11,226 nt of DNA from positions 1 through 11,226 of the forward strand of contig JALRDW010000006.1 in assembly GCA_023262065.1 (NCBI GenBank). Direction: 5' to 3'. Shown here piece by piece: positions 1-11,226 of this stretch. The notes below the pieces were generated by a model. The model was not told where the DNA came from and searched no databases. It saw only the letters and a list, made by a program, of their open reading frames with translations. Numbering within the stretch: position 1 is the first letter of the stretch; each line of letters begins with the position of its first letter. This DNA is from Acidimicrobiia bacterium. GTDB taxonomy: Bacteria > Actinomycetota > Acidimicrobiia > IMCC26256. The translations under genes and the position numbers were made by a program.

Positions 1-1
1 C

Positions 2-148
2 GACTGCACCGCGGCGACCGAGGTCGCGTGGCTGGAGCCGTCGAGTCAGGTCGTGCCGTACCTGAACCGGCTCGCCGATCTCGTGTGGACGATGGCGCGC
101 TGGCAGGAGGGCGCGTACCGTCCGGCCCGCGCCGGCTCCGACGACTGA
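2..148 (+). CDS. PduO-type ATP:cob(I)alamin adenosyltransferase, C-terminal fragment
   Basis: Reading from base 2, an open frame runs in from the left edge and ends at TGA 146-148, giving 48 residues. The segment VPYLNRLADLVWTMARW matches the conserved C-terminal helix of PduO/MMAB-type corrinoid adenosyltransferases, usually YLNRLSDLLFVLAR followed by a short tail. These enzymes transfer the adenosyl group of ATP to cob(I)alamin to make adenosylcobalamin, in the cytoplasm. The ATP-binding N-terminal motifs lie outside the window, so activity cannot be judged. The fragment ends with a short acidic tail, as in the family. A candidate hairpin follows 14 bases after the stop. At the other end of the window lies an adenosylcobalamin-dependent mutase, the main consumer of this cofactor, which supports the call. 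The identification rests on one motif and is fairly but not fully secure. Confidence 0.72.
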   Translation, partial: DCTAATEVAWLEPSSQVVPYLNRLADLVWTMARWQEGAYRPARAGSDD

Positions 149-3600: not shown

Positions 3601-4785
3601 TCAGTGGGACAGCGTCGAGCCGTCGGCCAGCACGGCGTGCGGGAGGCAGTGCTGGTCGTACTCGGCGATGACGATCTCGCCCGCGTCCTCGCCGCAGGCG
3701 GGGCAGCGCGGATCGCGACGCACCTTGAAGGTGCGGAACGACTGCTCGAGCGCGTCGTAGGCGAGGAGGCGACCGCGCAGCGGGTCACCGAGGCCGAGGA
3801 GGATCTTGATGGTCTCGAGGGCCTGGATCGACCCGACGATGCCGGGAAGCACGCCGAGCACGCCGGCCTCGGCGCAGGATGGCGCGAGCTCCGGCGGCGG
3901 CGGCTCGGGCAGGAGGCAGCGGTAGCAGGGCCCGTTGTACGGGTCGAACACCGTGACCTGCCCCTCGAACCGGAAGATCGAGCCATGCACGACCGGGACG
4001 TGCTTGAGCAGCGATGCGTCGTTGAGCAGGTACCGGGTGGGGAAGTTGTCGGTGCCGTCGACCACGACGTCGTAGCCATCGATGATGTCGAGCACGTTGT
4101 CGGCCCCGAAGCGGACGTCGTAGCCCACGACGTTCACGTCCGGATTGAGTGCGGTGAGCGTCTTCTTGGCCGAGTCGACCTTGCGCTCGCCGACCCGGTC
4201 GATGTTGTGGAGGATCTGCCGCTGGAGGTTGGACTGGTCGACGACGTCCATGTCGACCACGCCGAGGGTACCGACGCCTGCGGCGGCGAGGTACAGCGCG
4301 GCGGGGGACCCGAGGCCGCCCGCGCCGAGCAGCAGCACCTTCGACTCGAGGAGCTTCTGCTGACCCTCCTCGCCGACCTCCGGGAGCAGCAGGTGCCGCT
4401 TGTAGCGGTCGCGCTGCTCGGTGGAGAGCACGGCGGGGGTGATCCAGGTGCGGCCCTCGTTCTTCCACTGGCCGTACCCGCCGGCCATGGACACGACGTT
4501 GGTGTACCCCATCTCGACGAGCGTCCTCACCGCGAAGGCCGAGCGCACGCCGCCAGCGCAGTAGACGACGAGTTCGGCGTCGCGATCGGTGACCCGACTC
4601 TCGACCTGGCTCTCGAGGAACCCGCGGGCGATGTGGACGGCGCCCGGGATCGTGCCTGCGTCGTACTCGTCCTGCTCACGGACGTCGAGGACGGTGACCG
4701 ACCCGAGGCGCGCCTCGGCCTCCTCGGGGCTGATCTCGGTGATCTCGCTCTTCGTGCGGGCGAGGAGCTCGCGGAAGCTCGCCAT
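3601..4785 (-). CDS. Rhodanese-ThiF/MoeB fusion, sulfur-carrier adenylyltransferase/sulfurtransferase
   Basis: A 394-residue cytosolic enzyme expected to adenylate the C-terminal Gly-Gly of a ubiquitin-like sulfur carrier (MoaD, ThiS or CysO) and load sulfur on it for molybdopterin, thiamine or cysteine synthesis. Residues about 14-115 are a rhodanese domain with active-site C76 in CAGGVRS. Residues about 122-375 are a ThiF/MoeB E1-like domain: nucleotide loop GAGGLG 154-159, D246 in TDN matching the catalytic Asp of MoeB, zinc cysteines C287/C290 (CYRC) and C361/C364 (CPAC), and a possible acceptor C304. The rhodanese comes first, the reverse of mycobacterial MoeZ, where it is C-terminal. 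ATG chosen because GAGGGG lies 7 bases upstream and a -35/-10 pair stands further up. No carrier-protein gene lies in the window, so the partner is unknown. It resembles MoeZ in function, but I leave out the symbol because of the swapped order. Confidence 0.93.
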   Translation of the reverse strand: MASFRELLARTKSEITEISPEEAEARLGSVTVLDVREQDEYDAGTIPGAVHIARGFLESQVESRVTDRDAELVVYCAGGVRSAFAVRTLVEMGYTNVVSMAGGYGQWKNEGRTWITPAVLSTEQRDRYKRHLLLPEVGEEGQQKLLESKVLLLGAGGLGSPAALYLAAAGVGTLGVVDMDVVDQSNLQRQILHNIDRVGERKVDSAKKTLTALNPDVNVVGYDVRFGADNVLDIIDGYDVVVDGTDNFPTRYLLNDASLLKHVPVVHGSIFRFEGQVTVFDPYNGPCYRCLLPEPPPPELAPSCAEAGVLGVLPGIVGSIQALETIKILLGLGDPLRGRLLAYDALEQSFRTFKVRRDPRCPACGEDAGEIVIAEYDQHCLPHAVLADGSTLSH

Positions 4786-4826
4786 GGTGGGACCCCTCGG
4801 GGACGGGACGGGTGGCAGGGACGTAA

Positions 4827-4855
4827 ATCCTACTCAAGGGGTCAGGTATTCCCAA
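4827..4855 (-). promoter_or_regulatory. Sigma-70-type promoter of the rhodanese-MoeB gene
   Basis: Read on the minus strand, TTGGGA (4855-4850), a 17-base spacer, then TAGGAT (4832-4827), followed 41 bases later by the ATG. It is the only promoter in the window with a recognisable -35 box at ideal spacing. Confidence 0.6.
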
Positions 4856-4891
4856 CCCCGGTCCCGTCGCACCGGTCCGGTCGCCCGACCA

Positions 4892-4909
4892 GGGGGTCCC
4901 GGGACCCCC
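4892..4909 (-). terminator. Terminator hairpin after the alpha/beta hydrolase
   Basis: GGGGGTCCCGGGACCCCC is an 18-base perfect palindrome that can fold as a 7-pair GC stem with a CCGG loop. It starts 4 bases past the hydrolase stop codon on the minus strand. No T-run follows. It would isolate the hydrolase transcript from the downstream rhodanese-MoeB gene. Confidence 0.65.
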
Positions 4910-4913
4910 GGGA

Positions 4914-5819
4914 TCAGCGCCGATGCGGGTCCGAGTGGTCCCAGTCCGCCAGGAGGGTCCGGATCGCGGTGAGGAGGATGAGCGGCTGGTCGAGCATGGC
5001 GTGGTGGCCGGCCTCCGGCAGTTCGACGACCGGGGCCACCCGCCCGAGCCGCTCGTACATGGCCTCGCCGATCTCGCGGGTCACGATGCCGCGCTCGGAG
5101 CGAAGCAGCGCGAACCGGCAGGTGAGCTGGGTGAGGTACGGGAGTGCGACGGCGCGGACCCCGCCGGTGAACTGGGCGAAGATCGTGCGGTCGAACTTCC
5201 ACCGGAACCCGTCGTCCACCGGCCGGAGGGACCGGCGGGCGACATGGTCCATGACGTAGGGCAGGTAGTGGTCCTGGGGCGGCACGGTCCGGAAGCGCGC
5301 GAGCGCCTCGGCCTCGGTCGCGTAGGTCCGCTCGCGTCCGAACGCGTCGCGCACGTGGTACTCGCCGATCTCCGGATCGGGTTCGGTCACCGGTGAGTCG
5401 CAGATGATGACGCCGGTGAGCCGGTCGGGGTGGAGCGCCGCGGTGGCGATCGTCACGAACCCGCCCATGGAGTGGCCGACGACGACCGGCCGCCCGACGA
5501 TGCCGCCGGCCTCCGCGACCGCGATCACCTCGTCGGTCCAGTCCTCGAAGCGGTAGGCGTCGCGGTGCTCGCTGTCGCCGTGGCCCGAGAGGTCGACCGC
5601 GAGGACCCGGAAGTCCGCGGCGAAGTGTGCGGCGACGTGGGTCCACCAGTGCGCGTTCGCGCCGCCGCCGTGCACGAACACGAGGCCGCGCCCTCCCGGT
5701 GCCCCCCAGGCGAGGTAGTGCACGCGGCGTCCGTCGACCTCGACCTGCTCGTCGGTGAACGGCACCGCGAGCGCGCGTCGGAACCACTCGGGGGCGCCGT
5801 CGGCCGGCTCGATCACCAT
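4914..5819 (-). CDS. Alpha/beta-fold hydrolase
   Basis: A 301-residue soluble hydrolase with no signal peptide. The N-terminal strand region leads to the oxyanion motif HGGGAN (50-55). The nucleophile elbow is GHSMGG with S117, and the catalytic His is probably H272 in AGHHAMLDQP. The acid is less clear: E242 in LLRSERGIV sits where the family's acid after strand 7 usually lies, and D141 after strand 6 is an alternative. The lid region is about residues 140-225. Family members include esterases, lactonases, C-C bond hydrolases and dehalogenases; nothing here fixes the substrate. The ATG at 5819 has no Shine-Dalgarno, but TAGGCT lies 6 bases before it, suggesting a leaderless start. The acyltransferase upstream ends only 9 bases away, so read-through from that gene is also possible. 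A hairpin follows the stop. Confidence 0.9.
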   Translation of the reverse strand: MVIEPADGAPEWFRRALAVPFTDEQVEVDGRRVHYLAWGAPGGRGLVFVHGGGANAHWWTHVAAHFAADFRVLAVDLSGHGDSEHRDAYRFEDWTDEVIAVAEAGGIVGRPVVVGHSMGGFVTIATAALHPDRLTGVIICDSPVTEPDPEIGEYHVRDAFGRERTYATEAEALARFRTVPPQDHYLPYVMDHVARRSLRPVDDGFRWKFDRTIFAQFTGGVRAVALPYLTQLTCRFALLRSERGIVTREIGEAMYERLGRVAPVVELPEAGHHAMLDQPLILLTAIRTLLADWDHSDPHRR

Positions 5820-5825
5820 GCGGCG

Positions 5826-5831
5826 AGCCTA
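5826..5831 (-). promoter_or_regulatory. Candidate leaderless -10 box for the hydrolase
   Basis: TAGGCT on the minus strand (within CGGTAGGCT) ends 6 bases before the ATG. Its first three bases are also the stop codon of the acyltransferase. The 10 bases CCATCGGTAG are identical to those at 7230-7239 before the rhamnosidase. Confidence 0.45.
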
Positions 5832-7190
5832 CCGATGGGTGGGGATCGGTCGTTCCGCCGGCGCAGCGCCACCGACGCGCGCGAGCAGCACGCCGGAGAG
5901 CAGCACGCCGAGTGCGATCGCCGGGGTCCACGGGATGCCGACGTACTCGCGCACGCGGTTCGGGAATCCCTGCATCCCGGTGAGCGAGATGACGAGGAAC
6001 CCGATCGCGAGCACCGGCACCGAGACGACGGCGACCGCGTCGCGCCACCCGCCGTCGCCCGTGGTCGGTCGCTCGAGCCAGGGGATCGGCCGGTGCTCGA
6101 GCGGGGCGGCGAGGAGCACGACGACCACGGTGAGACCGAGGAACACCGCGACGTGGACCGCGGTCGCCGGCCAGAACCAGGGGTCCTGCGGTGCGGGGCG
6201 GTCGAGGCCGAGGACGTGCTCGAGGACCGTCAGCAGGATGAGCGCGGTGAGGTGCCACAGGTAGACCGTCATCGCGAGTCCGCCCATGAGGCAGGTGGCG
6301 ACCCACGCCCGGGGTCGATGGCACCACCGGTCGAGGCGCGGCCACGCCCACCCGATGAGCGCGACCAGCCACACCGAGTGGAGCGCGAGCACGAGCGTGG
6401 GCGGCGCCATGTTCGAGATCGGTTCCCCGGGCATGCCGACGAGCGAGAGCGGGTACGGACCGATGCGTACGACGAGCGCGTTCGCGACGAGGGCGGCCAG
6501 CGCGACGAGGAGGAGGCGGGGCGAACCGGCCCGCGCCCGGACGATCGGCCCGAGGGTGGCGGCGAGCACCCAGACGAGGAGGAAGTTGAGGACGCCGATC
6601 CCCCCGGTCACGTGGAACCGCCCGAGGTCGACGACCGTGATGACCGCGAGCAGCCCCAACACTGCGACCCAGCCGCGCGCGGCCATGCGGCCGATCGGTC
6701 CGGTGAGCGCGACCACGAGCACGTACACGCCGAGGAACCAGAGCAACTGGGTCGACAGTCGCGCGAGCGGGCCCGCGGCGCGGGGCAGGGCCGCCTCGAG
6801 ACCGAGCGCGATGGGGATCCAGATCGCGAGGTAGTAGAGCGCCGGGCGGGCGAGGCGGCGGATACGACCCCAGTACCAGACCCGCCACGGGCTCCCGGCG
6901 GTCTGGCTCGCGGCGTACGAGCCCGCGTTCGCGATCTGGCCCGCGGCGAAGAAGAGGGGCATGACCTGCAGGAGCCAGGTGAGGATCTTGAGCGCGGGCA
7001 GTTCGGCGAGCAGGTTGCCGAGTCGCGGGCGTCCGTCGTTCCAGGTCACGGAGGCCATGAGCACGTGGCCGAGCACGACGACGAGCAGCGAACCGGCGCG
7101 CAGGGCGTCCACGACGCGGTCGCGGGTCGGTGGGGTGGCCTCCGCCGCGGCCCGGGCGAGGGCGAGGGGTCCGACCCGGCCTTCGGTCAT
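5829..7190 (-). CDS. Membrane acyltransferase, AT3 (acyltransferase 3) family
   Basis: A 453-residue integral membrane protein with roughly 11-12 predicted membrane segments (about 33-50, 68-87, 115-133, 148-165, 173-190, 200-215, 226-243, 264-283, 300-325, 340-362, 385-405, 421-440). The first helix has the AT3 signature R-x10-H (R31, H42; the same spacing as R14/H25 of OafA), and RIRRLARPA at 109-117 matches the family's basic loop motif. AT3 proteins move acetyl or other acyl groups from the cytoplasm onto sugars, lipopolysaccharide, antibiotics or peptidoglycan. No SGNH domain is fused. The frame stays open far upstream, but that part is antisense to the rhamnosidase; the ATG at 7190 is chosen because the membrane domain begins just after it and TAACGT lies 7 bases before it. 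The hydrolase follows after 9 bases. The divergent rhamnosidase hints at a glycan substrate, which is inference. Confidence 0.88.
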   Translation of the reverse strand: MTEGRVGPLALARAAAEATPPTRDRVVDALRAGSLLVVVLGHVLMASVTWNDGRPRLGNLLAELPALKILTWLLQVMPLFFAAGQIANAGSYAASQTAGSPWRVWYWGRIRRLARPALYYLAIWIPIALGLEAALPRAAGPLARLSTQLLWFLGVYVLVVALTGPIGRMAARGWVAVLGLLAVITVVDLGRFHVTGGIGVLNFLLVWVLAATLGPIVRARAGSPRLLLVALAALVANALVVRIGPYPLSLVGMPGEPISNMAPPTLVLALHSVWLVALIGWAWPRLDRWCHRPRAWVATCLMGGLAMTVYLWHLTALILLTVLEHVLGLDRPAPQDPWFWPATAVHVAVFLGLTVVVVLLAAPLEHRPIPWLERPTTGDGGWRDAVAVVSVPVLAIGFLVISLTGMQGFPNRVREYVGIPWTPAIALGVLLSGVLLARVGGAAPAERPIPTHR

Positions 7191-7197
7191 GGCCGCG

Positions 7198-7203
7198 ACG
7201 TTA
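7198..7203 (-). promoter_or_regulatory. Candidate leaderless -10 box for the acyltransferase
   Basis: TAACGT on the minus strand ends 7 bases before the ATG at 7190, with no Shine-Dalgarno between. It fits TAnnnT but lacks the CGG extension seen at four other starts. Confidence 0.38.
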
Positions 7204-7236
7204 GGCGTCCCGTGGGTCCGGCGGGGTCGCCATCGG

Positions 7237-7242
7237 TAGCCT
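7237..7242 (+). promoter_or_regulatory. Candidate leaderless -10 box for the rhamnosidase
   Basis: TAGCCT (within CGGTAGCCT) ends 8 bases before the GTG at 7251, and no Shine-Dalgarno is present. Together with the minus-strand box at 7203-7198 it makes a compact divergent promoter within a 60-base gap. Confidence 0.48.
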
Positions 7243-7250
7243 CCCGACCC

Positions 7251-9632
7251 GTGAGACTCGAGCACCCCGCACCATTCACCGCGCGCTGGCGATCGGTGTG
7301 GATCTGGGATCGGATCCCCGGCATCGTCGCCGAGACCGCGACCCGCCCGGTCCTCACCGACCCGACGGACCACGTGGCCCTGCTGCGACGCACCGTCGAG
7401 GTCACGTCGGTGCCGCTCACCGCCGCGGCGCGCATCTGGGTCGACGGTCGGTACACCCTGCGCGTCAACGGGGCCGAGGTCGCGCGTGGTCCCGTTCGTT
7501 CCGATCCGCGCCGTTCGCACTACGACGTCGTCGATCTCGCGCCGTACCTGCGGACCGGCGAGAACGTGCTCGCGATCACGGCGCGTCACTTCGGGGTCGC
7601 GACATCGTGGTGGATGCCGGTGCCGCCGACCTACGCGCTCGGGGGTGGGTGCGTCGCCGTCGAGGCCCTCATCGGCGACGACTGGATCGTCGGCGATCCG
7701 TCGTGGCGGGTGCACTCCGGTTCGGCGTGGAGTCCCGTCTCGGTGCCGGGTGATGTCGCGTGCCTGCCGCTCGAGTCCTTCGACGCGCGCATCCATCCGT
7801 GGGGCTGGGATCTCCCGGGATTCGACGACTCGGGCTGGGCGCCCGCGGTGCAGGTCACGCCGGTCCACACGGGCGGGCGCATGGATCCGCACCCGCCGAG
7901 CGAACCGTTCGGCATGCTGCGCCCGCCGGTGCGGATGGGGTACCCGGACGGTGCGACCCACCGGGCGACCGAACGGGCGCGACGCACCGTCGTCGGTGCG
8001 CCGCTCGGGCCGGACCCGGTCGCGCAGGTCCTCGCGGACGAGGGGACCGCGGAGGGCGGCGCGGTGACCCTCGTGTCCCTCGACCTCGGCCACATCGCCG
8101 CCGGCACGGTGGTGCTCGAGGTGTCGGGTGCCGTGCCGGGCACGACCATCGACCTCGCGGCCTCCGAGCACCTCGACCACGACGGTCACCTCGCGCCGCT
8201 GGGGCAGCACGCCGGGCTCCGCTACGTCTGTGCGGGGGGTGATGAACACTTCGAGTCGCTCGAGTCGATCGGCACGCGCTACCTCACGGCCTCGGTGCGC
8301 GTCCCCGACGGTGGTGCGGTGCCCGCCTGCTCGGTCTCGATCCACGACCGGCACCGGCCCCGGCCCGCCGGCGCCTCGTTCGCGTGCTCCGATCCGCTGC
8401 TCGAGCGCATCCACGCGGTGGGGCTCCGGACCGTCGACCTCAGCGCGCTCGACGCGTACGTCGACTGCCCGACCCGCGAGCAGCGGGCCTGGACCGGCGA
8501 CTCCGTGGTGCACCAGCAGGTCGACCTCACGAACAACCCGGACTGGTCGATGGCGATCTGGCACCCGCAACTCGCGGCGCAGCCGCGCTTCGACGGCATG
8601 CTCGCGATGGCGGTCGCCTCCGACTTCCAGGCCGACGACCGCACGATCGTGCCGGACTGGTCGCTCCACTGGGTGCGATCGGTGCACAACCTCTGGATGT
8701 ACACCGGTGATCGTGAGGTGGTCACCGAGCTGCTCCCGGTGGCGGAGCGCACGCTGCGCTGGTTCGAGTCGTTCCTCGCCGATGACGGCCTGCTCCACGA
8801 CGTGACCGGGTGGCTGCTCGTGGACTGGGCCTCCTGCTACACGACGGGGTGCTCATCGACGGTGAACGCGCTCTGGGCCCGTGCGCTCGAGGACTACGCG
8901 GCCATGGCCGATTGGGTGGGGAACGCAGGGTCCGCGGCCTGGGCCCGCGAGCGCTACGAGGGGGTGCGGGCCGGGTTCGAGGTGTTCTGGGACGAGGCCC
9001 GGGGTGTCTACATCGATCACATCGACCGCGGGGTGGCGGGGCGGGCCGCCGCCCAGCACCCGGGCGCCGCGGCCCTCGCGGCCGGCATCGTGCCGGCCGC
9101 GCGTGTCGCGCGCGTCGTCGCCGGGATCACCGACCGGTCGCGGCTCATCAAGCACGCGTGGGTCATGGACAAGGTCACGGTCGAGGGCGGCGGGGCCGGA
9201 TACGTCTACATGGTCATGGGCTACCCGGAACCGGAGTGGGACGCGGAGACCCGTATGGTCGAGGCCGAACCGTTCTTCCGCTACGTGGTGCACGACGGAC
9301 TCGCCCGGGCCGGCCGCGCCGACCTCGTCGCCGATCGGTGCCGGGACTGGTCGCACTTCCTCGACCGGGGTGAGACGACCTGGCCCGAGGACTGGAACGG
9401 GGGGACCCGGTGCCACGGGTGGTCCGCCACCCCCACCCGGGACCTCATCGTGCACACGCTCGGCATCGCCCCGGCCGAGCCGGGGTACGCATCGGTGCGG
9501 GTGGCGCCGGCGCTCGGCGATCTCGAGTGGGCCCGTGCCGTCGTGCCCACCCCGCACGGTCCGATCACGGTCGAGGCCCACGCGGATGGTCGGGTCGAGG
9601 TGGACTCACCGGTCCCGGTGGTGCAGGGCTGA
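7251..9632 (+). CDS. Alpha-L-rhamnosidase, glycoside hydrolase family 78
   Basis: A 793-residue enzyme expected to cleave terminal alpha-L-rhamnose from glycans or glycosides by inversion. N-terminal beta-sandwich domains cover about residues 1-205 (including VDGRYTLRVNG) and 270-355 (the usual SLDLGHIAAGTVVLEVSG strand pair). The (alpha/alpha)6 catalytic barrel spans about 375-730, and a C-terminal beta-sandwich ends the protein (WARAVVPTPHGPI). The GH78 hallmark DCPTREQRAWTGD gives D405, E410 and D417, with the same spacing as D567, E572 and D579 of Bacillus RhaB; E713 in TTWPEDW matches the base E841, and H722 lies in CHGWSATP. Shorter than many GH78 enzymes (900 or more). No signal peptide, so it likely acts on imported sugars. 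The longer upstream frame is antisense to the acyltransferase; GTG at 7251 is chosen from the promoter and domain start. Family secure, exact substrate not. Confidence 0.92.
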   Translation: MRLEHPAPFTARWRSVWIWDRIPGIVAETATRPVLTDPTDHVALLRRTVEVTSVPLTAAARIWVDGRYTLRVNGAEVARGPVRSDPRRSHYDVVDLAPYLRTGENVLAITARHFGVATSWWMPVPPTYALGGGCVAVEALIGDDWIVGDPSWRVHSGSAWSPVSVPGDVACLPLESFDARIHPWGWDLPGFDDSGWAPAVQVTPVHTGGRMDPHPPSEPFGMLRPPVRMGYPDGATHRATERARRTVVGAPLGPDPVAQVLADEGTAEGGAVTLVSLDLGHIAAGTVVLEVSGAVPGTTIDLAASEHLDHDGHLAPLGQHAGLRYVCAGGDEHFESLESIGTRYLTASVRVPDGGAVPACSVSIHDRHRPRPAGASFACSDPLLERIHAVGLRTVDLSALDAYVDCPTREQRAWTGDSVVHQQVDLTNNPDWSMAIWHPQLAAQPRFDGMLAMAVASDFQADDRTIVPDWSLHWVRSVHNLWMYTGDREVVTELLPVAERTLRWFESFLADDGLLHDVTGWLLVDWASCYTTGCSSTVNALWARALEDYAAMADWVGNAGSAAWARERYEGVRAGFEVFWDEARGVYIDHIDRGVAGRAAAQHPGAAALAAGIVPAARVARVVAGITDRSRLIKHAWVMDKVTVEGGGAGYVYMVMGYPEPEWDAETRMVEAEPFFRYVVHDGLARAGRADLVADRCRDWSHFLDRGETTWPEDWNGGTRCHGWSATPTRDLIVHTLGIAPAEPGYASVRVAPALGDLEWARAVVPTPHGPITVEAHADGRVEVDSPVPVVQG

Positions 9633-9651
9633 CCGACGCGTCGGTTCAGCC
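9627..9651. terminator. Bidirectional terminator overlapping both stop codons
   Basis: GGCTGA (9627-9632) pairs with TCAGCC (9646-9651), and CCGA with TCGG inside it, around a CGCG loop with a single bulged T at 9645. The stem contains the TGA of the rhamnosidase and the TGA of the convergent Sir2 gene, which are only 13 bases apart. No T-run on either side. Confidence 0.6.
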
Positions 9652-10434
9652 GGCTCGCAGCGCGTCGACGAGGGCGGGGAGCACCTCGCCGAGCGGGTCC
9701 CGCGCGATCGCCGCGGCCACGCCGTCGTAGGGCGTCGGCTGCGCGTTGGCGATGACGATGGTGGCACCGGCGCCGTGCGCGAGGGCGGGCATCCGGGCGA
9801 TCGGGTACACGCCGAGCGAGGTGCCGAGCGCGAGGAACACGTCGGCCGATGCCGCCGCCGCGAACGCGCGCTCGAGGTCGGCGTCGTCGAGCGATTCGCC
9901 GAAGGACACGGTCGCGCTCTTGAGGATGTACCCGCAGTCCGGGCACGCCGGATCATCCTCGCCGGCGCGCACGCGGGCGAGCGCGGCCTCCATGGGCGCA
10001 CGGTACGAGCAGCGCAGGCACTTGACCCGATGCGTCGTGCCGTGGATCTCGACGAGCCGATCCGGATCCGACCCGGCGACGTGGTGGAGCCCGTCGACGT
10101 TCTGGGTCACGAGCAGCGTCACGCTCGTGAGGTCCGCGAGGTCGACGAGTGCGCGGTGGCCGGCGTTGGGCTCGACGTCCCACATGCCGTTGGTGGCCCG
10201 GGCGTGCCAGTTGCGTCGCCGAAGTTCGGGGTCGGCGAGGTAGTACCGGATGTTCGAGGCCTTCTCGGCGTCCGGGTTCCTCGTCCAGAGGCCCTGGGGC
10301 CCGCGGAAGTCGGGGATGCCCGACTCCGTGGAGATGCCGGCCCCGGTGAGGATCACGATCGAGCGGGCCCCCCGCAGCCACCCGGCGATCTCGTCGAGTG
10401 GGATCGGGTCGAAGGGGGAGCGGGCGTCGTCCAC
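9646..10434 (-). CDS. Sir2-family NAD-dependent protein deacylase
   Basis: A 262-residue cytosolic sirtuin that removes acyl groups from lysines using NAD+, yielding nicotinamide and O-acyl-ADP-ribose. The Rossmann motifs are intact: GAGIS 31-35, D42-F43-R44, TQNVDG 110-115 with N112 and D114, catalytic H131 in IHGTTH, GTS 204-206 and NAQPTPYD 230-237. Four zinc cysteines are C139, C142, C164 and C167. The [12 protein letters not shown] segment after the zinc ribbon resembles SIRT6/7-like or unclassified bacterial sirtuins more than CobB or SIRT5; I see no clear Tyr/Arg pair typical of desuccinylases. GTG at 10434 is the start in frame; TACCCT ends 8 bases before it and no Shine-Dalgarno is seen. 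It is divergent from the mutase gene across 98 bases. Known bacterial sirtuin targets include acyl-CoA synthetases; a link to propionyl-CoA metabolism here is only inferred from position. Confidence 0.93.
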
Positions 10435-10442
10435 GGCATCGG

Positions 10443-10448
10443 AGGGTA
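10443..10448 (-). promoter_or_regulatory. Candidate leaderless -10 box for the Sir2 gene
   Basis: TACCCT on the minus strand (within CCGGTACCCT) ends 8 bases before the GTG at 10434. It has the same CGGTAnnCT form and the same 8-base spacing as the boxes before the rhamnosidase and the mutase. Confidence 0.45.
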
Positions 10449-10518
10449 CCGGCGCACCGCCGCCGGACCGCGCCGTGCCGACGGGCCCACGAACGGAAGG
10501 CGGGACCGGGGCCGCCGG

Positions 10519-10524
10519 TAGTCT
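10519..10524 (+). promoter_or_regulatory. Candidate leaderless -10 box for the mutase gene
   Basis: TAGTCT (within CGGTAGTCT) ends 8 bases before the ATG at 10533, with no Shine-Dalgarno. It shares the 98-base divergent gap with the Sir2 box. Confidence 0.48.
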
Positions 10525-10532
10525 GCGCCGCC

Positions 10533-11111
10533 ATGGCCACCGATGACACCCGCCGCACCGATTCCGGCATCGAGATCAAGCCGGTCTACACCGAGGCCGA
10601 TCTCGCGGGCTTCGACCCGACGAGCGCGCTCGGCGAGCCGGGGGCCGCCCCGTACACGCGGGGCGTGTACCGGGAGATGTACCGCACCCGCCCGTGGACG
10701 ATGCGCCAGTACTCCGGCTTCGGCACCGCGGCGGAGACGAACCAGCGGTTCCACTTCCTGCTCGGGGCGGGCCAGACCGGCCTGTCCTGCGCCTTCGACC
10801 TGCCCACGCAGATGGGTTACGACTCCGACCACCCGCGGGCCGAGGGCGAGGTCGGCAAGGTCGGCGTCGCGATCGACTCGCTCGAGGACATGGAGATCCT
10901 CCTGCAGGGTCTGCCCCTCGACGAGGTCTCGACCTCGATGACGATCAACTCGACCGCGGCGATCCTGCTCCTGCTCTACCAACTCGTCGCCGAGGGCCAG
11001 GGTGTCGACCCGGCACGGATCAGCGGCACGATCCAGAACGATCTGCTCAAGGAGTACGTGGCCCGGGGGACCTACATCTACCCGCCGCGCCCGTCGATGC
11101 GGCTCATCACT
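10533..11111 (+). CDS. Methylmalonyl-CoA mutase-type large subunit, N-terminal part, cut by a chimeric join
   Basis: The first 193 residues of an adenosylcobalamin-dependent acyl-CoA mutase that interconverts methylmalonyl-CoA and succinyl-CoA in propionate and odd-chain or branched substrate breakdown. The N-terminal TIM-barrel region is unmistakable: [14 protein letters not shown] (53-66), [50 protein letters not shown] and [10 protein letters not shown]. It resembles the shorter large-subunit type that pairs with a separate B12-binding subunit, but that end is missing. Y60 matches Y89 of Propionibacterium MutB; isobutyryl-CoA and 2-hydroxyisobutyryl-CoA mutases have Phe or Ile there, so methylmalonyl-CoA is the likely substrate. 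The second specificity residue (R207 in MutB) is not covered. After MRLIT the expected D-I-F-x-Y is replaced by unrelated residues. The reading frame happens to stay open to base 11226, so automatic calls will give a false C-terminus. ATG chosen from the 8-base leaderless spacing and family start. Confidence 0.92.
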
Positions 11112-11226
11112 CGCCGAGTTCGAGATCGAGTACGCGGACAAGACCTCGCCCACGGTGGACGTGGCCTTCCTGGCACAGGACCTTGCCGCCGTGGCCAAGG
11201 CCTTCGGCGTGCCCGCGCTGGAGCAA
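11107..11226 (+). CDS. ileS: Isoleucyl-tRNA synthetase internal fragment, probably joined by misassembly
   Basis: From base 11107 a frame different from the mutase encodes 40 residues to the window edge, including [20 protein letters not shown]. It aligns without gaps to a stretch of the catalytic part of bacterial IleRS; from memory E. coli has [21 protein letters not shown] followed by a similarly spaced helix ending in KAKF, here AKAF. The version looks proteobacterial, possibly betaproteobacterial. Codons CTT, GCA and CAA appear here while the neighbouring genes almost avoid A or T at third positions. It has no start, no ATP site and no relation to the mutase, so it is most simply foreign sequence attached at a contig end. 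Confidence 0.75.

Follow-up and report, generated by a model that had tools for sequence, protein, structure and literature searches.

The closest described counterparts of the locus reported here are the inter-genome chimeric contigs of short-read metagenomes. Such contigs (PMC7299287) combine two sources that meet at a short shared word, carry the foreign part at a contig end, and present a plausible open frame across the junction. The locus analyzed here has the same properties, but it differs in that both sides of one break appear to be chimeric, with different partners, and in that the foreign tail falls short of a single k-word at the inferred k. A second parallel is provided by the microhomology-induced chimeric library reads of MicroSEC (PMC8674242), where fragments are likewise joined at a short identical stretch; the samples there were formalin-fixed and human, unlike the metagenome sample behind our contig. 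Of the two protein families involved, the large subunit of methylmalonyl-CoA mutase (TIGR00641/PF01642) is represented by an ordinary sequence at 10533-11110, cut after about one-third of the domain, and betaproteobacterial isoleucyl-tRNA synthetase (IleRS, encoded by ileS) by a tail that shares a stretch of residues with it over 43 codons only, with neither start nor end.

Results

The mutase gene up to and beyond the join

The window, the whole stretch of DNA that was analyzed, comprises 11,226 nucleotides and is the entire contig C246, one of 300 in a draft genome that totals 2,102,117 bases and is 79% complete; the join between mutase and IleRS therefore sits at a true contig end. Features are collected in Table 1.

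Table 1. Features of the window that bear on the join between mutase and ileS sequence
Feature	Position	Strand	Remarks
Terminal overlap of 141 bases	1-141	.	Exact match to the suffix of C211 (6976 bases), same genome
Native 5' part of the methylmalonyl-CoA mutase large subunit gene	10533-11110	+	TIGR00641, PF01642; 192 complete codons
30-base word exactly common to C246 and C140	11081-11110	+	Equals C140 184-213
Zone of the join	11098-11110	+	Up to 13 bases of microhomology; either gene can account for the sequence
Foreign piece of betaproteobacterial ileS	11111-11226	+	Frame from 11110, or from 11098 counting the microhomology; DNA matches L031 and L030

An earlier examination of the same DNA, here called the sequence-only reading, had described the mutase frame as sound up to the join. 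Profile searches agree: the 192 residues encoded by 10533-11109 match NCBIfam TIGR00641 over positions 2 to 188 of 528 (E 2.7e-82) and Pfam PF01642 (E 4.8e-75). The TIGR00641 score, 276.7 bits, does not reach the cut-off set for whole proteins (303.8), which is normal for a truncated piece in which the N-terminal catalytic domain is matched. The piece is 85.4% identical at the protein level to its ortholog from G003, a same-genus genome consisting of one contig, and the gene order pepA, cupredoxin/beta-helix-like, moeB-like, sir2-like, mutase is common to both (all names but that of the mutase were read from the translations, without family searches). Between its moeB-like and sir2-like genes, the window carries hydrolase-like, acyltransferase-like, and large rhamnosidase-like frames at 4786-9645, again named from translations; in G003 the two flanking genes adjoin, with matches ending and starting at 4652 and 4832 in locus L046, and no counterpart of the block turned up in the 13-kb stretch of G003 examined.

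Past the join, the frame of the mutase (10398-11225) remains open as far as the edge of the contig, as the sequence-only reading had stated, and matched no family in NCBIfam or Pfam profile searches. The residues that a mutase should have at this point are indeed missing. In 14/14 loci from other genomes (L014 to L027, the best DNA matches, paralogs among them), the protein runs on as ITDIFAYC...PRWNTISISGYH or a close form, and the genome's own mutase copies on contigs C140 and C9 also run past this position. Together with a copy on C243, which departs earlier and was not counted, these make up the 17 mutase loci examined. A DNA search of 60 relatives gave 50 with some match to the query from the window. 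Among the matches listed, 10 reach query positions 138-144 and another two, at 179-217 and at 188-223, fall within the tail; the rest end at 45-112. The 10 long matches are mutases that continue beyond the join in gapped alignments, and the gene is unbroken in all of these relatives' loci (10/10); the two inside the tail have no IleRS motif and were taken as chance.

The copy on C243 (L045; position 1 to about 75, minus strand) is a mutase paralog that seems to leave its frame within the last 50 to 75 bases, where another frame reads WLMGLAYPDTVTARGARQFYRDDD. No donor was found for this end (best E 0.4), so that a chimera there is a suspicion; the genome may possibly have a further contig end of chimeric origin in C243.

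A piece of ileS at the contig end

The last 120 or so bases had been read as IleRS in a shifted frame, an assignment that both DNA and protein comparisons uphold. Bases 11098-11226 are identical to two betaproteobacterial metagenome-assembled genomes (MAGs) at 116/129 positions (L031) and 115/129 positions (L030); the highest of 2000 shuffles of the tail reached 54/129. In the closer MAG, 11 of the 13 differences fall at third codon positions, and 3 of the 43 codons alter the residue. A degenerate pattern of 18 codons had two hits in the genome collection, one in a record titled Burkholderiales bacterium and the other in one titled uncultured beta proteobacterium. When the frame at 11110-11226 was compared with a plasmid collection by tblastn, 22 records were recovered, all from gamma- or betaproteobacteria as judged by genus, and among the 20 listed, 11 are annotated as ileS and 9 have no feature listed; the fragment is thus homologous to genes that carry an ileS annotation. 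The top match was to Xanthomonas vasicola (72.7%, E 6e-7). Extending the query to the 43 residues from 11098 gave 26 plasmid records with a best E of 2e-9, one of them from Listeria at E 0.7. Among the genomes around the betaproteobacterial MAG, 125 of 198 (the MAG included) show some match, many of the weaker ones short and unchecked. The best 30 loci were tried, each located by a looser motif consisting of the first 9 residues, and 29 could be read, L060 being dropped because it had no match to the search motif; a 12-residue IleRS stretch of the tail is present in 29/29.

One record in the plasmid collection, L029 (NZ_CP034650.1, a 29-kb Xanthomonas vasicola "plasmid"), has its ileS-like match upstream of lspA. 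The genes ileS and lspA are a usual chromosomal pair, and the record may be a misfiled chromosome piece.

Profile models recognized the tail weakly. Models for ileS gave E values of 0.0026 and 0.016 on 11002-11226 and no match on 11110-11226, and on the IleRS frame Pfam returned no more than two sub-threshold matches. Against the curated TIGR00392 cut-off of 621.4 bits, the frame at 11002-11226, with its piece of about 43 codons, scored 13.4. A like-sized piece of the betaproteobacterial MAG's own IleRS scored 18.4 bits, with no TIGR00392 match at E 0.01, and since it scores similarly weakly, we attribute the result for the tail to its short length. A blastn search of plasmids with 11100-11226 gave 120 records, and in no case did the match extend over 80% of the query; among the 20 listed, one (H6) lies within an ileS gene.

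Other sources for the tail were considered. As protein, it matched 0/60 relatives of the window's genome, and a DNA search of that genome returned the window itself as the only match. The genome's own IleRS, on contig C92 (1089 amino acids), is 31% identical to the betaproteobacterial IleRS over 526 columns; this value and the DNA search rule out C92, or any other contig of the genome, as the source. A viral source found no support in viral contigs, where a 14-codon pattern had no hit; in the "phages" collection, 10 records match, 3 of them annotated as isoleucyl-tRNA synthetase. The exact donor was not found in these collections, the best match being 90% at the DNA level. The different codon use that the sequence-only reading had ascribed to the tail was not demonstrated, its G+C content being 68%, against 72% before it.

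Position of the join

Across 11098-11110, both genes may read TGCGGCTCATCAC. The limits of this stretch are set by single bases on either side. At base 11097 the window has A, and the IleRS loci read have C or T (29/29), which assigns this base to the mutase, and base 11111 is T in the window and C in the genome's own C140, which fits IleRS. In codons, the window reads ..CGA TGC GGC TCA TCA CTC GCC GAG, the two best IleRS matches read ..GAC TGC GGC TCG TCG CTG GCC GAG, and the mutase on C140 reads ..CGATGCGGCTCATCACCGAC. The motif TCATCA at the join occurs in 0/29 of the IleRS loci read, so that the shared stretch may amount to only 8 bases (TGCGGCTC). The join had been placed at 11107-11112; that placement was near the mark but too narrow, as the join may lie anywhere in 11098-11110. 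When 58 genomes of the order were searched with a junction pattern allowing up to 3 mismatches, the window was the one hit, and the pattern was absent from the 57 other genomes.

These results bear on whether the window encodes a functional fusion, or a frameshifted two-domain protein, of mutase and IleRS. The open mutase frame, which reaches the contig edge, would allow such a protein to be proposed, but the IleRS sequence is in a different frame and amounts to about 43 internal codons, and the mutase match goes no further than position 188 of the 528 in the profile. A real gene fusion is ruled out by frame and truncation, by taxonomy, and by its absence from the genomes searched; we regard its probability as negligible and do not expect such a protein to exist.

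Contig C140, the probable continuation of the mutase gene

The first bases of contig C140 already lie within a mutase gene. The 30-base word that it has in common with the window (Table 1) is the longest exact run between window positions 10500-11226 and C140 positions 1-1300, the next longest being 14 bases, and it ends where C246 leaves the mutase. Over codons 1 to 60, C140 agrees with the G003 ortholog at 104/180 bases and 31/60 residues, compared with 136/180 bases and 50/60 residues for C246 across those codons. Beginning with codon 61, the next three 30-codon blocks of C140 have base identities to G003 of 0.81, 0.80, and 0.89. Later blocks are 61 to 83% identical, with codons 301 to 360 at 0.61 and 0.68, and because of this dip the low values at the start are by themselves no proof of foreign origin. 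The G+C content of C140 is 57.9% in 1-183 versus 69.3% in 214-1222. Its downstream genes, which we call DnaQ/BRCT-like and NifS-like, are syntenic with G003 (65.7% over 397 residues and 62.4% over 125 residues, respectively).

No donor of C140 1-183 was found among the 60 relatives or the 81 genomes around the betaproteobacterial donor. The best match by E-value is 75% over 165 bases, from the window's class; G002, of the same genus, gives 76% over 154 bases, and the 81 genomes give 72% over 182 bases. In G003, the start of C140 matches the other mutase paralog, so that an exchange with a native paralog is possible for this contig. From these comparisons, C140 most likely carries, from about position 184, the genuine 3' part of the mutase gene that begins on C246, and the opening stretch of C140, some 180 bases, resembles a piece of a foreign or paralogous mutase, joined in frame at the 30-base word. 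With the end of C246 and the start of C140 both looking foreign, both sides of one break appear to be chimeric. Profile searches still class C140 as a mutase, as they do the fused frame of C246.

Assembly context

At its other end, the window overlaps C211 (Table 1); this is the sole overlap of at least 15 bases among the 5 contigs compared, and from it the two contigs are presumably neighbors in the assembly graph. An exact overlap of this length suggests a de Bruijn assembly at k = 141, a reading based on one overlap; we take 141 to be the largest default k of MEGAHIT. By its coordinates, the final 141-base word of the window, 11086-11226, still includes 12 bases that belong to the mutase only. 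The contig thus contains no purely IleRS word of that length, and the tail is shorter than one such k-word. MEGAHIT may take in less supported reads when extending well-supported contigs, according to a review of metagenome assembly (PMC7299287), and this tolerance fits a tail that came from one or a few chimeric reads.

Alternatively, no chimeric molecule need have existed, and the assembler could have passed from one gene into the other, at low k, by way of a short word common to both. Such a graph error is a variant of the explanation that we prefer, differing in the step that calls for chimeric reads, and we think it unlikely. The join to IleRS shares at most 13 bases, base 11097 being A against C or T in 29/29 IleRS loci, and this is below 21, which we take to be the usual smallest assembly k. 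A word of 13 bases or fewer is too short for a node at k of at least 21, which makes a chimeric molecule the likelier origin here. In favor of a graph error, C140 meets the window in a 30-base word, which would suffice for k of 21 to 29, and graphs linked by shared words can give chimeric contigs from several genomes (PMC7299287).

Discussion

We conclude, with a probability of about 0.96, that the end of C246 is chimeric and arose in the library or during assembly. Its two parts come from two organisms, the tail leading to betaproteobacterial MAGs and the mutase to the syntenic gene of the same-genus genome G003. The sequence-only reading had judged the contig end most likely to be a chimera out of a mixed sample, and the differing taxonomy, the unbroken mutases read in relatives, and the absence of the junction from 57 other genomes of the order all support it. 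So does the contig context, with the tail occupying the last bases and the rest of the gene most likely carried by C140. Three elements go beyond what had been noted before: a microhomology that may span as many as 13 bases, the overlap of 141 bases with C211, and contig C140.

Native mutase extends to 11097-11110 and is followed by a 116- to 129-base piece of IleRS from an uncultured betaproteobacterium, presumably of the same sample. The events behind this arrangement may have been as follows. An assembler resembling MEGAHIT would have run up to k = 141, and native coverage would have failed at the conserved mutase stretch 11081-11110, whose 30-base word is also in C140. A single chimeric read or a small number of them, with little support and with a join at 8 to 13 bases of microhomology, would then have extended the contig into IleRS, and C140 would most likely hold the true 3' part behind a 5' start from some other mutase.

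Illegitimate recombination in vivo, in which a fragment of betaproteobacterial ileS disrupted the mutase gene in some cells, would also leave 8 to 13 bases of microhomology. It needs, however, an event between distant taxa that falls exactly at a contig end and leaves a piece shorter than one k-word, and it has against it that C140 most likely continues the same gene and that the junction is absent from 57 other genomes of the order. We consider it highly improbable.

On the preferred explanation, that of a chimeric contig end, the join between mutase and IleRS is not a real feature of the organism, and no new biology follows from it. Its significance lies in data quality: a foreign tail shorter than one inferred k-word sits in an open frame that gene-calling programs will let through, and C140, most likely the other half of the gene, also opens with an apparently different foreign piece, in frame.
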